Source: Rhodobacterales bacterium (lineage in GTDB: Bacteria > Pseudomonadota > Alphaproteobacteria > Rhodobacterales > Rhodobacteraceae). From it: DNA of 64,000 nucleotides. The notes beneath the pieces are model-generated. The model had not been told where the DNA came from. It ran no database searches and saw only the letters and a list, made by a program, of their open reading frames with translations. Position 1 is the first letter of the stretch; each line of letters opens with the position of its first letter. Made by a program: the position numbers and the translations under genes. The DNA lies in NCBI GenBank assembly GCA_002748265.1, contig PDRY01000020.1, positions 1 to 64,000 of the forward strand. The letters are read 5' to 3'. This document shows, one piece after another, positions 4,573-37,464 of the stretch.

Positions 4573-4632
4573 GGGCTTCTTTTGGCCGCAAATATCCTGG
4601 GGGGAGGCCGCAAGGCCGGGGGGCAACGCCCC
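4573..4632. repeat. Dispersed two-hairpin repeat, copy 1
   Basis: About 60 bases between rlmH and gpmI. It contains an AT-rich head (CTTCTTTTGGCCGCAAATAT), then CCTGGGG, a GGCC-GCAA-GGCC hairpin with a GNRA-type loop, and a GGGGG-CAAC-CCCC-type hairpin. A closely matching copy lies at 33673-33734 and a weaker one at 9563-9622. Read on the plus strand it is antisense to the surrounding transcript. It resembles a REP-like intergenic element; family membership is not proven from one window. Confidence 0.6.
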
Positions 4633-4633
4633 C

Positions 4634-5098
4634 TTACACGCGGTGATAGGGCGATCCGGCCAGGATCGACGCGGCGCGGTAGAGCTGCTCCGTCAGCATG
4701 ACCCGCACCAGCATATGCGGCCAGACCATGGCTCCGAAGGACAAGAGATGATCCGCCTCAGCCCGCAGCGACGGATCAATCCCGTCCGCCCCGCCGATGA
4801 CGAAGCTCACGCAGCCTTCACCCCGATCACGCCAGCCGCCCAGGCGCGCGGCAAAATCGGGCGAGCTTTCCACCCGCCCGCGCTCATCCAGGCAAACAAT
4901 CAGCCCGCTGGCCGCCTTGCGCAGCAGCGCCGCTTCGCTGGCCATCCCGCCGCCCTTGCGATCGTCGACTTCAACGACATCCACCGGGCCGAGCCCAAGA
5001 GCCCGCCCGGTTCGGTCGAACCGTTTCACATAGTCGTCGATCAGGTCTTGCTCGGGGCCGCCACGCAGGCGCCCCACGGCCACGATCCGAACCTTCAC
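4634..5098 (-). CDS. rlmH: 23S rRNA (pseudouridine1915-N3)-methyltransferase RlmH
   Basis: A 154-residue SPOUT-family methyltransferase that uses S-adenosylmethionine to methylate pseudouridine 1915 in helix 69 of 23S rRNA on assembled 70S ribosomes. Diagnostic segments are the N-terminal MKVRIVAVGRL, LDERGR, the knot sequence FVIGGADG, and the C-terminal LTEQLYRAASILAGSPYHR. The start codon is GTG at 5098. The rsfS stop is only four bases upstream, the normal rsfS-rlmH pairing of two late ribosome factors. Confidence 0.96.
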   Translation of the reverse strand: MKVRIVAVGRLRGGPEQDLIDDYVKRFDRTGRALGLGPVDVVEVDDRKGGGMASEAALLRKAASGLIVCLDERGRVESSPDFAARLGGWRDRGEGCVSFVIGGADGIDPSLRAEADHLLSFGAMVWPHMLVRVMLTEQLYRAASILAGSPYHRV

Positions 5099-33088: not shown

Positions 33089-33253
33089 GCGTTTCAACAG
33101 CTCACATCCCGCGTGATCACACGCCGCACCGCCACGCAGTTTTGAAACATTGCGATGGAATAAATCCCAAACGGCAGATCCCCGCTCAAGCGGATATACG
33201 ACAACCCTATGTTTCTAAAGTATATTCAATATGCGAAATGCACCACCACCCTG

Positions 33254-33278
33254 ACAGACGCGTGACACACGAGTCTGT
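33254..33278. promoter_or_regulatory. Inverted repeat, candidate operator of the bufferin operon
   Basis: ACAGAC (33254-33259) and GTCTGT (33273-33278) form a 6-bp inverted repeat spaced by 13 bases, about 95 bases before the precursor start. Arm spacing fits a dimeric regulator bound to one face of DNA. No regulator gene adjoins the operon, so the partner, if any, is encoded elsewhere. Confidence 0.35.
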
Positions 33279-33370
33279 GAATGGATCGGTTCAGTCAGGC
33301 AGGCCAACCTTGGGGCGTCGGGTCGGCATGGTGCCGGACCGCTCACACAAAAAGCCATGAGGACACCCCC

Positions 33371-33667
33371 ATGACCAACACCAAAACCCTCGCCATCGCC
33401 GTCGCCGCTGCTGTCGCCGGGCTCGCCACCACCGCCCACGCCGGCGGTAAGGAAAAGTGCTATGGCGTCGCCATGGCTGGCGAAAACGGCTGCGCTGCCG
33501 GTCCCGGCACCACCTGCGCCGGCACCTCCACCGTTGACTACCAGGGCAATGCCTGGGCGCTCGTCGACGAAGGCACCTGCATGGACATCGAACTGCCCGC
33601 CATGGACGACGGCACCATGCGCAAAGGCTCCCTTGAGGCGCTCGATCGCGACCTGCCCGAAGCGTAA
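33371..33667 (+). CDS. bufA1: Bufferin-type precursor peptide (DUF2282)
   Basis: A 98-residue secreted peptide of the DUF2282/BufA1 family. A signal peptide ([18 protein letters not shown]) is cleaved near residue 24, unlike most RiPP leaders, which are cut by dedicated proteases. The mature part carries four cysteines at 30, 41, 49 and 70 in the family frame [21 protein letters not shown] and DEGTCMDI, and a 28-residue acidic tail ending in LEALDRDLP. In bufferins studied elsewhere, the MNIO enzyme converts cysteines to copper-binding heterocycles and the product is exported to the periplasm to sequester copper. That chemistry is inferred here from family and operon. Start ATG 33371, preceded by GAGGA. 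Confidence 0.92.
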
Positions 33668-33672
33668 ACCAC

Positions 33673-33734
33673 CGCTTTCTTTTTAGCCCCAAATATCCTG
33701 GGGGAAGCCCGCAAGGGCCGGGGGTGAAACCCCC
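33673..33734. repeat. Dispersed two-hairpin repeat, copy 2
   Basis: Just after the precursor stop. Order of parts is as in the copy at 4573-4632: CTTTCTTTTTAGCCCC, AAATATCCTGGGG, GCCC-GCAA-GGGC, then GGGGG-TGAAA-CCCCC. Here it is in the sense direction of the transcript. It could stabilise the short precursor mRNA. Confidence 0.6.
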
Positions 33735-33742
33735 GAGAAAAG

Positions 33743-33768
33743 GGGTGGGAGGGCGGGCCCTCCCACCC
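33743..33768 (+). terminator. Very strong hairpin between precursor and MNIO genes
   Basis: GGGTGGGAGGG and CCCTCCCACCC form a perfect 11-bp stem with a CGGG loop, 75 bases after the bufA1 stop and 28 before bufB. There is no U tract. It most likely acts as an RNase barrier or partial terminator that yields far more precursor than enzyme message. Together with the repeat just before it, the 128-base gap is almost entirely structured. Confidence 0.6.
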
Positions 33769-33795
33769 ATCCCCTCACAAGAAACGAGCGGTTCG

Positions 33796-34650
33796 ATGCG
33801 CGACACCCTTTCCGATTTCCGCCTGCCCCCACGCCCCGGCGTCGGCTACAAACCGCAGCATTTCAGCGCCATCCAGGACGACGCGACGCCAGTCGAGTGG
33901 TTCGAGATCCACGCAGAAAACTACATGGGCGACGGCGGCCGCCCCCTCGCGCAGCTGCGCTCCTTGTCCGAGCGGTTCCCGATCTCGGTGCATGGCGTCG
34001 GGCTTTCGATCGGCGGGGAGCGCCCGCTCGACAAAGACCACCTTGCCCGGCTCAAGACGCTTGTCGATGCGATCAACCCGGCCAGCTTCTCTGAACATCT
34101 TGCCTGGTCGACCCATGACATGGGGTTTTTGAACGATCTTCTGCCCCTGCCCTACACGACCGAAACCCTGACCCGCATCTGCGATCACATCGACGAGGTG
34201 CAGGCGCATCTGGGCCGCAAGATGCTGCTTGAAAACCCGTCCTCTTACCTGGCCTTTGCCGAAAGCACCTGGGCCGAGACCGACTTCCTGCGCGAAGTTT
34301 CGGACCGCACCGGCTGCGGGCTACTGCTGGACGTCAACAATGTCTTTGTCTCCGCCACCAACCTGGGCACGTCCCCGCAAGGCTACATCGCGCAGTTCGC
34401 GCTTGACCGGGTGGGAGAAATCCACCTCGCGGGCCACGATGAGGACGAAGACGACCACGGCCGCCCGCTTCTGATCGACAGCCACGGCCGCGAAGTCGCG
34501 GAGCCGGTCTGGGCCCTGCTCGACATGGTGCTGGACCGCGCCGGCGCGCGGCCGCTTCTCATCGAATGGGACAATGATGTGCCGGATTGGCCGGTTCTGG
34601 CCGCCGAAGCGCGCCGTGCTCAAGATGCCTTGGAAAAGGTCTCCGCATGA
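33796..34650 (+). CDS. bufB: MNIO-family peptide-modifying iron enzyme (DUF692, BufB)
   Basis: A 284-residue TIM-barrel enzyme of the multinuclear non-heme iron oxidase family (DUF692). Metal-ligand positions are visible: WFEIHAENYM (E41), SVHGVGLS (H66), FSEHLAW (E100), LLENPSSY (E146, N147), LLDVNNVFVSA (D179), EIHLAGHD (H210, H214), LIDSHGR (D228, H230) and LIEWDND (E257). Members oxidatively modify cysteines in a ribosomal precursor using Fe(II)/Fe(III) and oxygen, with a DUF2063-type partner. ATG 33796 has only a weak ribosome site, consistent with lower expression than the precursor. Its end overlaps bufC by four bases. Confidence 0.92.
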   Translation: MRDTLSDFRLPPRPGVGYKPQHFSAIQDDATPVEWFEIHAENYMGDGGRPLAQLRSLSERFPISVHGVGLSIGGERPLDKDHLARLKTLVDAINPASFSEHLAWSTHDMGFLNDLLPLPYTTETLTRICDHIDEVQAHLGRKMLLENPSSYLAFAESTWAETDFLREVSDRTGCGLLLDVNNVFVSATNLGTSPQGYIAQFALDRVGEIHLAGHDEDEDDHGRPLLIDSHGREVAEPVWALLDMVLDRAGARPLLIEWDNDVPDWPVLAAEARRAQDALEKVSA

Positions 34651-35366
34651 GCCAGACGATCTTCGCCAAAGCCCTGCTGAACCCGGATGCCCCCGTCCCC
34701 GAAGGCGTGATTGACCCGGATGGGAACCCGACGCCGAAACGCTTCGCCGTCTATCGCAACAACGTGGCGGTTTCACTGACCGAGGCGCTCGAACAGGCCT
34801 TTCCCGCGCTGCAAAGCCTGATCGGTCCGACCCGGTTCAAGGCGCTTGCCGGGCTGTACCTGCGCGCCCACCCGCCCCGCGATCCGCGCATGATGGTTTA
34901 CGGCGATGGGATGGCCGATTTCCTGCCGCAGGTCACCCAGCTTGCGGCCTATCCCTATTTCGCCGATGTCGCGCGGCTGGAGCAGGCGATCCGCGAGAGC
35001 TACCACGCCGCCGATACTGCCCCGCTCGATCCGGCGCGGCTGGCGGCCCTGCCGCCCGAGGCGATTGCGGACACCCGGTTGCTCTTTGCGCCCGCCGTGC
35101 GACTGGTCAGCTCCCCCTTCCCGGCCTTGAGCATTCGCGCCCGCGCGCTTGATCCAGAGGCGCCAAAGCCGACCCAAGGGGCGCAATCCATCCTCATCAC
35201 CCGGCCGGAATTCGATCCGGTTCCTCATCTGATCGGCCAGGATCAGGCCGATGCCATCGCCGCGCTGATGAACGGCGCCCCGCTGGGCGAGGCGCTTGCA
35301 TCGACCGACCCGAATGCTCTGCTGGCGCTGCTTTTGGGCAGTGCCGCGCTTACCGACCTGGAATGA
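34647..35366 (+). CDS. bufC: MNIO partner protein (DUF2063, BufC/HvfC-like)
   Basis: A 239-residue protein with an N-terminal DUF2063 helical domain (FAVYRNNVAVSLTEALEQAFPALQSLIG, and LYLRAHPPRDPRMMVYG) and a C-terminal part (YPYFADVARLEQAIRESYHAAD, then LLITRPEFDPVPHLI-like). In MNIO systems this subunit binds the precursor and delivers it to the enzyme. The ATG at 34647 overlaps the bufB TGA (ATGA), and bufD starts at or 11 bases after its stop, so B, C and D are tightly coupled. Confidence 0.9.
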   Translation: MSQTIFAKALLNPDAPVPEGVIDPDGNPTPKRFAVYRNNVAVSLTEALEQAFPALQSLIGPTRFKALAGLYLRAHPPRDPRMMVYGDGMADFLPQVTQLAAYPYFADVARLEQAIRESYHAADTAPLDPARLAALPPEAIADTRLLFAPAVRLVSSPFPALSIRARALDPEAPKPTQGAQSILITRPEFDPVPHLIGQDQADAIAALMNGAPLGEALASTDPNALLALLLGSAALTDLE

Positions 35367-35377
35367 AAGGCCCCGCC

Positions 35378-35902
35378 ATGCTGACCCGCCTCGACCGCCT
35401 TGCCGACCCGCTTCGTTTTGCTGCCACACCGGTTCTGACGACCCTGGCCCGCTTTGCCTTCGCGGCGGTGCTGCTGCGCTATTATCTCAACTCGGCCTTC
35501 ACGAAGTTCGACGGGCTCGGCCTCGACGCGGGCGCCTATATCCAGATCCTGCCCAAAGCGATGGAGGCTGCCGGATACGACCCCTCGCAGCTGGGCTTCG
35601 TGGCGCATTTGATCGTCTTCGCCGGGGCCATGGCAGAAATCATTCTGCCGATCCTGCTGATCATCGGGCTCGCCACACGGCCCGCCGCGCTTGGCATGAT
35701 CGTGTTCATCCTGGTGCAAAGCATTGTCGACGTGACGGGTCACGCGGTCGACGCAACCACGCTGGGTGCCTGGTTCGACACCCAGTCGGGCGCGCTGATC
35801 CTGGATCAACGACTGATGTGGATCACGGTTCTGGCGATCCCGCTGATGCTGGGAGGCGGGCCGCTCTCGCTTGATCGGTTGATCTACAAAAGGTTCGCCT
35901 GA
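35378..35902 (+). CDS. bufD: DoxX-family membrane protein (BufD)
   Basis: A 174-residue four-helix inner-membrane protein of the DoxX family. Helices are seen at FAFAAVLLRYYLNSAFTKFDG, LGFVAHLIVFAGAMAEIILPILLIIGLA, ALGMIVFILVQSIVDVTG and ILDQRLMWITVLAIPLMLGG. DoxX proteins are the usual fourth gene of bufferin operons and are suspected to serve in electron transfer or membrane support. ATG 35378 has AAAGG at good spacing; ATG 35363, overlapping the bufC stop, is an alternative. Its last 19 bases overlap the convergent ArsC-like gene. Confidence 0.88.
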   Translation: MLTRLDRLADPLRFAATPVLTTLARFAFAAVLLRYYLNSAFTKFDGLGLDAGAYIQILPKAMEAAGYDPSQLGFVAHLIVFAGAMAEIILPILLIIGLATRPAALGMIVFILVQSIVDVTGHAVDATTLGAWFDTQSGALILDQRLMWITVLAIPLMLGGGPLSLDRLIYKRFA

Positions 35903-37041: not shown

Positions 37042-37464
37042 ATGCGCTTTGCACCTCTTTTTCTGGGATCGCTTGGCCTTGCTGCTCTGGTCGGCTGCTC
37101 CGACTTTGGCGATGATACCGGCCCCTATGCGAATGACGGCGAATGCGATGACCCGCGCTACACCGGGCAGGGCATGGCGAGCTCTTTGAACGACGAGAGC
37201 ATCGGCAGGGACGCAAGCGACTGCGCTGCAATGCTCGCCGCCGGCCGCATCCGGCCGATCCGTCAACGCAGCCAGTGGGAGCCTGCGCAATGCCGGGCCA
37301 TCAGCTTTGGCGACAACAGCTCGCAGTGGGCGCGGGATGGTGAATGCGACGATCCGCGTTTCGCCGGACCGGGCGTGGATGAAATCCTTCTCCCCGCCGA
37401 CAAGGGCCACGACGCCGCCGATTGCCGCGCCCTTTGCGAGGCCGGAGAAGCCTGGCCGCGCTGA
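37042..37464 (+). CDS. Lipoprotein with two DGECDDPR cysteine repeats
   Basis: A 140-residue predicted lipoprotein (lipobox LVGC, Cys 19). The rest is built from two copies of one unit with a 67-residue period: residues 22-69 and 89-135. Each unit reads FGD(D/N), then (A/W)..DGECDDPR(Y/F) and G(R/H)DA(S/A)DC, with cysteine pairs 35/61 and 102/128 that could form a disulfide in each copy. An extra pair, Cys 84 and Cys 132, might link the units. Acidic clusters DGECDDP might bind calcium. The same motif is known to me from other Rhodobacteraceae secreted proteins, but no function is established. Confidence 0.8.
   Translation: MRFAPLFLGSLGLAALVGCSDFGDDTGPYANDGECDDPRYTGQGMASSLNDESIGRDASDCAAMLAAGRIRPIRQRSQWEPAQCRAISFGDNSSQWARDGECDDPRFAGPGVDEILLPADKGHDAADCRALCEAGEAWPR

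Follow-up and report, generated by a model that had tools for sequence, protein, structure and literature searches.

A Rhodobacterales bufferin 1 operon preceded by two conserved palindromes and apparently controlled without SigF

Introduction

How is a bufferin operon controlled in a bacterium in which the regulatory scheme of the Caulobacter operon seems to be missing? This question is raised by a stretch of 64,000 nucleotides (nt), here called the window, from contig PDRY01000020.1 of a Rhodobacterales bacterium (assembly GCA_002748265.1). The operon under study, with the genes bufA, bufB, bufC and doxX, lies at 33371-35902. A precursor, an MNIO enzyme, a DUF2063 protein and a DoxX protein form the core of bufferin clusters (PMC12452194). 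In Caulobacter, such an operon is driven by a SigF promoter, GTAACC-N16-CGAA, and has the negative regulator CC3252 (PMC3511200).

The answer proposed here is that the window holds a bufferin 1 operon under SigF-independent control, which is exerted through two palindromes upstream of bufA and by an unlinked regulator. This reading is considered likely. The first-pass annotation of the window had called the operon, and that call stands; it had overlooked the control region, which departs from the Caulobacter SigF/NrsF scheme.

Two palindromes upstream of bufA

Two features in front of bufA carry the argument.

33252..33284, + strand: operator; tandem 14-bp palindromes TSACR-N4-YGTSA at 33252-33265 and 33267-33280, with a 1-nt spacer, then ATGG
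33305..33310, + strand: putative degenerate -10 element, CAACCT, placed by its conserved distance from the operator

The block was first seen by side-by-side comparison of upstream DNA and was then described by a position weight matrix (PWM). Two sets of relatives were used. The first comprises the best 80 of 577 loci by similarity and is hence biased to close kin (Rhodobacteraceae and kin, as far as titles show), while the second comprises genomes sampled by kinship, 25 from the same family and 9 from other families. One genome is present in both sets (L042 and L109), and some of the 114 bufA loci stop at a contig end. The PWM set left out 12 of the 114, namely 1 that ends at a contig end and 11 that are SigF types or belong to other families.

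The PWM finds the operator in 84 of 103 bufA upstreams, which are the window itself, 69 of 79 in the similarity-ranked set and 14 of 23 other loci of the same family. On shuffled upstreams, 1 of 1030 passes. When trained on the sites of 83 relatives without the window, the matrix scores the window site at 38.4, the best in the 64 kb, compared to 10.5 for the next independent site. If a spacer of 0-3 nt is allowed, at least 17 of 20 positions agree in 93 of 114 upstreams, compared to 18 of 2280 shuffles, and the spacer is 1 nt in 86 cases and 2 nt in 7.

Information content is 1.75 bits at the 14 core positions (picked post hoc) and 1.08 bits over all 33, compared to 0.21 bits in the 30 nt upstream and 0.15 bits in the spacer. 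Since the operator lies far above its flanks, its conservation is not a matter of mere relatedness. Moreover, its distance to the promoter is conserved: TANNNT occurs exactly 21 or 22 nt past the operator in 57 of 84 upstreams, where shuffles give a mean of 10 and at most 17.

Family-wide counts of bufA, NrsF, the two-box pattern and the box-plus-SigF pattern were drawn from 248 genomes of one family, 178 of which have a bufA match. If up to 2 mismatches are allowed, 115 of the 248 contain the two-box pattern, and a backwards control gave 6 hits compared to more than 128. After 4 overlapping opposite-strand entries had been dropped, 128 places were used. Of these, 98 precede the start of a listed bufA match by 70-127 nt, and four more stand at known bufA genes (G003, G011, G013, G022), so that at least 102 of 128 are bufA sites.

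Only the bufA site matches the operator exactly in the window's own genome. A wider operator regulon there was considered and rejected, as the search gave just two further sites, with 2 and 3 mismatches, which lie within dnaK and in the interval from an M48 peptidase gene to a tRNA-Phe gene. Within the searched literature, as far as it was available, the apparently SigF-independent operator seems to be new.

Relation to SigF and NrsF

SigF/NrsF control of the window operon seems to be absent. No SigF-type promoter (GTAAC-N17-CGAA) lies in the 300 nt upstream of its bufA, and a search for NrsF in the own genome (88% complete) gave 0 matches; the SigF gene itself was not searched for.

Across relatives, the two-box and NrsF schemes are nearly exclusive. 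Among 35 bufA genomes, 16 carry the two boxes, none of them with NrsF (one of the 16, G039, belongs to another family and has a weak score). Six carry a SigF promoter, all with NrsF, while 2 have NrsF without the exact promoter and 11 have neither. In the 248 genomes, the two-box pattern is present in 2 of 35 with NrsF over the cut-off compared to 113 of 213 NrsF-negative ones, where NrsF matches below the cut-off (five genomes) were entered as negative. In one of the two, G257, the pattern does not lie at a listed bufA. Counts anchored at bufA are available among the matches listed, for which 146 of the 178 bufA genomes have a place: the two boxes stand upstream of bufA in 1 of 12 NrsF-positive genomes compared to 97 of 134 others. 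The matches listed are the stronger ones and SigF-type operons are common among the weaker, so that the 12 NrsF-positive genomes are a part of the whole.

A single box is found at the SigF-type promoters themselves. Nine such promoters were examined in the family, eight with GTAAC-N17-CGAA and one near match, and in each of them one box (8-10 of 10 positions) stands 5 nt, once 6 nt, upstream of the GTAAC that forms the -35. Three loci outside the family (L069, L072, L073) have no box at that place. In three two-box upstreams (L126, L129, L142), a SigF-type pattern occurs at other distances.

A search for one box plus a SigF promoter with up to 2 mismatches gave matches in 35 of 248 genomes, with 40 listed sites compared to about 50 hits in the backwards control, and therefore only sites with 0-1 mismatch are meaningful. 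In 12 of the 30 loci returned, bufA adjoins the site. Eight sites are exact: 6 at bufA, 1 before a lone doxX and 1 near a DUF2063 gene.

The last two deserve a separate description. At L239 (G101; site about 1501-1545), the SigF-type promoter and one box, with 0 mismatches, precede a DoxX gene that stands alone; DoxX is thereby linked to this control even where bufABC is not adjacent. At L235 (G107; site about 1501-1545), the promoter and box lie about 0.5 kb before the DUF2063 gene, and the 3-kb locus holds no bufA or bufB match.

On a BufB tree (a quick tree, midpoint-rooted, with L073 and L102 left out), promoter types cluster, with 9 changes compared to 21.1 when shuffled. SigF types lie mostly near the midpoint root and two-box types are mostly nested, with 6 changes compared to 20.3 when shuffled for these two types; L056 is a SigF type within the two-box group.

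Candidate regulators

The operator appears to occupy an activator-like place, to judge by its position, and the single box found 5-6 nt ahead of the -35 in SigF-type promoters points to the same kind of place. Boxes at such promoter distances are usual for activators.

It may be asked whether the palindromes instead bind a repressor, for example of TetR, GntR or MarR type, that leaves its operator under metal or oxidative stress. The tandem palindromes stop about 24 nt before the -10, and a protein sitting on them would overlap the -35 region as well, which would suit repression. The rigid 21-22 nt to TANNNT and the single box ahead of the -35 in all nine SigF-type promoters examined argue in the other direction, so that a repressor appears unlikely, if still a serious candidate.

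A similar standing is given to the idea that the boxes are bound by a copper-sensing response regulator of the CopR/CusR/AgrR kind. The AgrR box, ATKACA-N4-TGTMAT, is a 6-4-6 inverted repeat like the CopR and PcoR boxes, and type II activation has been proposed for AgrR (PMC7380067). The operator palindrome shares the core TNACR-N4-YGTNA with this box, and its half-site differs, with G, C or A at the second base instead of G or T. In sequence, the likeness thus appears to be a resemblance and not a match. Strong matches to TIGR01387 (CusR/CopR) below the cut-off of 279 bits are found in the two-box genomes G031, G009 and G003, at 244-250 bits, which speaks for such a regulator. However, other matches of this kind occur in G006, G001, G014 and G032, which are without two boxes or without bufA, and none of 61 genomes, the own genome included, has a TIGR01387 match over the cut-off. 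The best match in the own genome (183 bits) is probably PhoB, because a PhoU gene and an ABC ATPase gene adjoin it. A CopR/CusR orthologue was set aside as the regulator for lack of a match over the cut-off, and the kind as a whole is doubtful.

A linked regulator was also looked for. Among the recurrent neighbour clusters listed for the 80 loci, none stood out as a bufferin regulator, as judged by sequence starts and positions only.

The operon and its conservation

33371..33667, + strand: bufA; 98-residue bufferin 1 precursor, DUF2282 (PF10048, E 1.5e-22)
33796..34650, + strand: bufB; 284-residue MNIO bufferin maturase, DUF692 (NF050167 MNIO_BufB, 377.2 bits)
34647..35366, + strand: bufC; 239-residue DUF2063-RRE partner, PME type 1 (PF09836, E 1.5e-24)
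35363..35902, + strand: doxX; 179-residue DoxX-family membrane protein (PF07681); alternative start at 35378

The four open reading frames (ORFs) follow the published bufferin order, bufABC-doxX. The first-pass annotation had named the precursor, MNIO, DUF2063 and DoxX genes and had suggested a search with models of DUF2282, DUF692 and DUF2063. All of these models match above their curated cut-offs, and the ORFs, the Pfam and NCBIfam matches and the gene order in relatives bear the call out. The Pfam scores in bits, with cut-offs in brackets, are 79.7 (22.4) for PF10048 DUF2282, 348.4 (25) for PF05114, 86.5 (27.2) for PF09836 and 31.6 (23.6) for PF07681 DoxX. The start of bufC overlaps the stop of bufB as ATGA, as had been noted before, and doxX overlaps its preceding gene in the same way when read from its first ATG; another ATG is found at 35378.

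In the 114 relatives' loci, bufB is found on the same strand as bufA in 112, bufC in 111 and doxX in 101. In the set of 80, bufB follows bufA in 79, bufC in 79 and doxX in 77. Chance is excluded as the cause of this arrangement. Among ORFs of at least 90 residues within 5 kb on each side in these 80 loci, the recurrent ones are thrS on the upstream side (65 loci) and an ArsC/Spx-like gene on the downstream side (47 loci), which suggests that the operon has mostly been inherited vertically. In the own genome, given its 88% completeness, the operon holds the sole MNIO match and the sole DUF2282 match. As bufA is common in the family (178 of 248 genomes), the coding part is a normal, chromosomal Buf1 bufferin operon and another member of a well-described family. 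Three loci (L048, L087, L151) carry a tandem pair of bufA copies ahead of a single bufB.

The BufA precursor and its tail

BufA has the 98 residues, the four cysteines, the DUF2282 match and the 28-residue tail after Cys70 that had been described from the sequence. Its cysteines, Cys30, Cys41, Cys49 and Cys70, are each kept in 80 of 80 relatives. Residues 1-24 form a likely signal peptide (a Lys, a hydrophobic Ala-rich run and AHA-GG, with Ala24 in 79 of 80 relatives); this agrees with the earlier proposal and was judged from the sequence pattern rather than by a dedicated program.

The tail had been regarded as an acidic add-on that might be removed or might bind metal. Its length is as stated, while its end proves to be conserved. 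All 80 relatives share Arg84, Gly86, Leu88, Arg93 and Asp94, and the strict motif RxGSLxxLxRD(L/I)P is found in 72 of 80, a slightly relaxed form in all 80. The terminal RD[LIVM] is present in 80 of 80 similarity-ranked relatives, in 21 of 25 same-family genomes sampled by kinship and in 0 of 9 from other families; a GSL-like motif occurs in 23 of 25 and 7 of 9 of the latter two groups. The tail thus looks like a clade extension of the common Buf1 end, and it may have a role in recognition by BufB-BufC or in stability. A His within the tail is rare in the family (1 of 80 relatives and 1 of 25 same-family genomes, compared to 4 of 9 in other families), so that extra metal binding through imidazole is unlikely, while acidic residues may possibly act as ligands. 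Searches of the PDB with the BufA and BufC sequences gave no match.

In characterised Buf1, thiooxazoles arise from the inner cysteines, a disulphide joins the outer pair, and the product chelates copper in the periplasm (PMC12452194). The window operon agrees with this cluster in families, gene order and likely function, as the first-pass annotation had held; by analogy, the same chemistry may be expected of its BufA. A different stress, such as gold, chromium, cadmium, oxidants or sulphur species, might be served instead. Caulobacter relatives need SigF under dichromate (PMC3511200), the gold-induced 'gig' operons are bufferin clusters, and DoxX has been tied to oxidative or sulphur stress (PMC12452194). 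Nevertheless, growth in copper is improved by the characterised Buf1, a binder of Cu(I)/Cu(II) (PMC12452194), and a main role other than in copper is regarded as improbable.

BufB, BufC and DoxX

BufB scores 377.2 bits with the NCBIfam equivalog NF050167, compared to a cut-off of 310, and falls below the cut-offs of the other four MNIO models listed (HvfB, ApyH, MbnB, ChrH). A methanobactin-like or oxazolin-type system, which belongs to the same MNIO superfamily and whose MbnB and HvfB models do match below cut-off, can be dismissed as very improbable, as MbnB reaches 58.3 bits of 325 and HvfB 236.7 of 360, BufB passes its own cut-off, and the precursor is of the DUF2282 group without EGKCG repeats.

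The likely ligands of BufB (H66, H101, E146, D179, N182, H210, D228, H230, E257 and D259) are identical in 109 of 109 BufB sequences. These positions were placed by eye from alignments to solved MbnB or 3BWW, with the MbnB ligand list taken partly from PMC8888699, and to that extent they agree with the earlier statement that all expected iron ligands are present.

The AlphaFold2 model of BufC has a pLDDT of 93.6. It matches TglI (8hci_A; E 8.8e-6, TM 0.61 by query, 229 alignment columns) and NGO1945 (3dee; E 1.3e-3, TM 0.57, 217 columns), which identifies BufC as a full DUF2063-RRE partner. Its score with the HvfC equivalog is 40 bits, short of the cut-off of 142.

The four helices previously assigned to DoxX agree with its hydrophobic segments, which were judged without a dedicated program. 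A DoxX match is missing from the fetched stretch in five SigF-type operons of the family (L050, L054, L065, L067, L127), in contrast to most two-box operons, and SigF-type operons L056, L083, L102 and L124 do have one.

Stem-loops between bufA and bufB

33668..33795, + strand: bufA-bufB gap; 128 nt with strong stem-loops, for example at 33743-33768

This gap folds at -66.4 kcal/mol, with a z of -6.3 against mononucleotide shuffles. Among relatives' bufA-bufB gaps of 30-200 nt, z is below -2 in 79 of 106, and their sequences mostly look unrelated. For comparison, leader regions, which are not a matched control for gaps, have z below -2 in 10 of 84 and a median z of -0.8; a stem-loop at the 5' end of the mRNA was rejected, as leaders fold little better than shuffled sequences. 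The gap stem-loops may act as a 3' mRNA stabiliser or an attenuator, and the folding would fit a device that gives more precursor than enzyme. No known RNA family is found in the 64-kb window at gathering scores.

A GC-rich palindromic intergenic element occurs in the window at 33680-33768 and at 4580-4653. Part of the gap matches this dispersed element. The own genome holds 8 other partial matches, of which 3 are strong (E < 1e-4), and one of these 3 also lies in the window.

Proposed mechanism and points against it

According to the preferred reading, BufA would be made with a Sec signal, and the BufB-BufC complex would oxidise the inner Cys41 and Cys49 to thiooxazoles before export. Cys30 and Cys70 would then form a disulphide, and mature BufA would chelate surplus copper in the periplasm, all by analogy to Buf1. 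DoxX would serve as an accessory membrane protein. Transcription would proceed without a SigF-type promoter, with an unlinked DNA-binding regulator, most likely an activator, bound at 33252-33280 just upstream of a weak promoter. The stem-loops after bufA would probably raise the ratio of precursor to enzyme.

Several points weigh against this reading. The window is among the 27 of 84 upstreams without a strict TANNNT, and its CAACCT is a weaker match. The PWM leaves 19 of 103 upstreams under its threshold, and 21 of 114 are without two boxes even when a spacer of 0-3 nt is allowed. G179 combines NrsF over the cut-off with two boxes at bufA, and the limits of the NrsF negative given above count here, as does the lack of a TIGR01387 match over the cut-off. 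The structure model of BufA has no confidence (pLDDT 50), the copper specificity would follow by homology, and dichromate was the condition under which the SigF-controlled operons of Caulobacter were studied (PMC3511200).

Evolution and meaning

A scenario can be offered tentatively, as plausible but short of probable. In most Rhodobacteraceae with the operon, bufferin would have left SigF/NrsF control for a dedicated, unlinked, metal-responsive activator that binds tandem palindromes and has few further sites in the genome. At an earlier stage, this factor would have assisted at SigF promoters from a single box, 5 nt ahead of the -35; the sigma factor would later have been replaced by a second box. 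The one-box and two-box pattern predicts how control may have moved from a sigma factor to another regulator.

The coding genes are one more case of a large known family. For a major and largely marine group, the operator gives a sequence handle on the missing sensor that governs bufferin production.

Apart from the operon, the window encodes at 37042-37464 a putative lipoprotein of 140 residues with two repeats, GECDDPR(Y/F)xGxG...DAxDC, and no Pfam match at E 0.01.

Comparison with known systems

The captophorins (fontiphorin and oxazolin/HvfABC) likewise combine an MNIO enzyme with a DUF2063-RRE partner and are thiooxazole copper binders (PMC12668002). Their precursors carry EGKCG/Lys-Cys repeats, whereas the window precursor belongs to the DUF2282 group.

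The CopR, PcoR and AgrR boxes (PMC7380067) have in common with the operator the core TNACR-N4-YGTNA and a place upstream of the promoter. The operator differs in that it consists of two whole palindromes 15 bp apart with the half-site T(G/C/A)AC, where theirs is T(G/T)AC, and in having no orthologous regulator over the cut-off.

The closest system is the Caulobacter bufferin 1 operon CC3254-CC3257, which contains the same four families in the same order (PMC3511200, PMC12452194). The difference lies in control: the Caulobacter operon depends on SigF and CC3252, whereas the window operon, with no NrsF match in its genome and no SigF-type promoter in the 300 nt ahead of bufA, has a two-palindrome operator.

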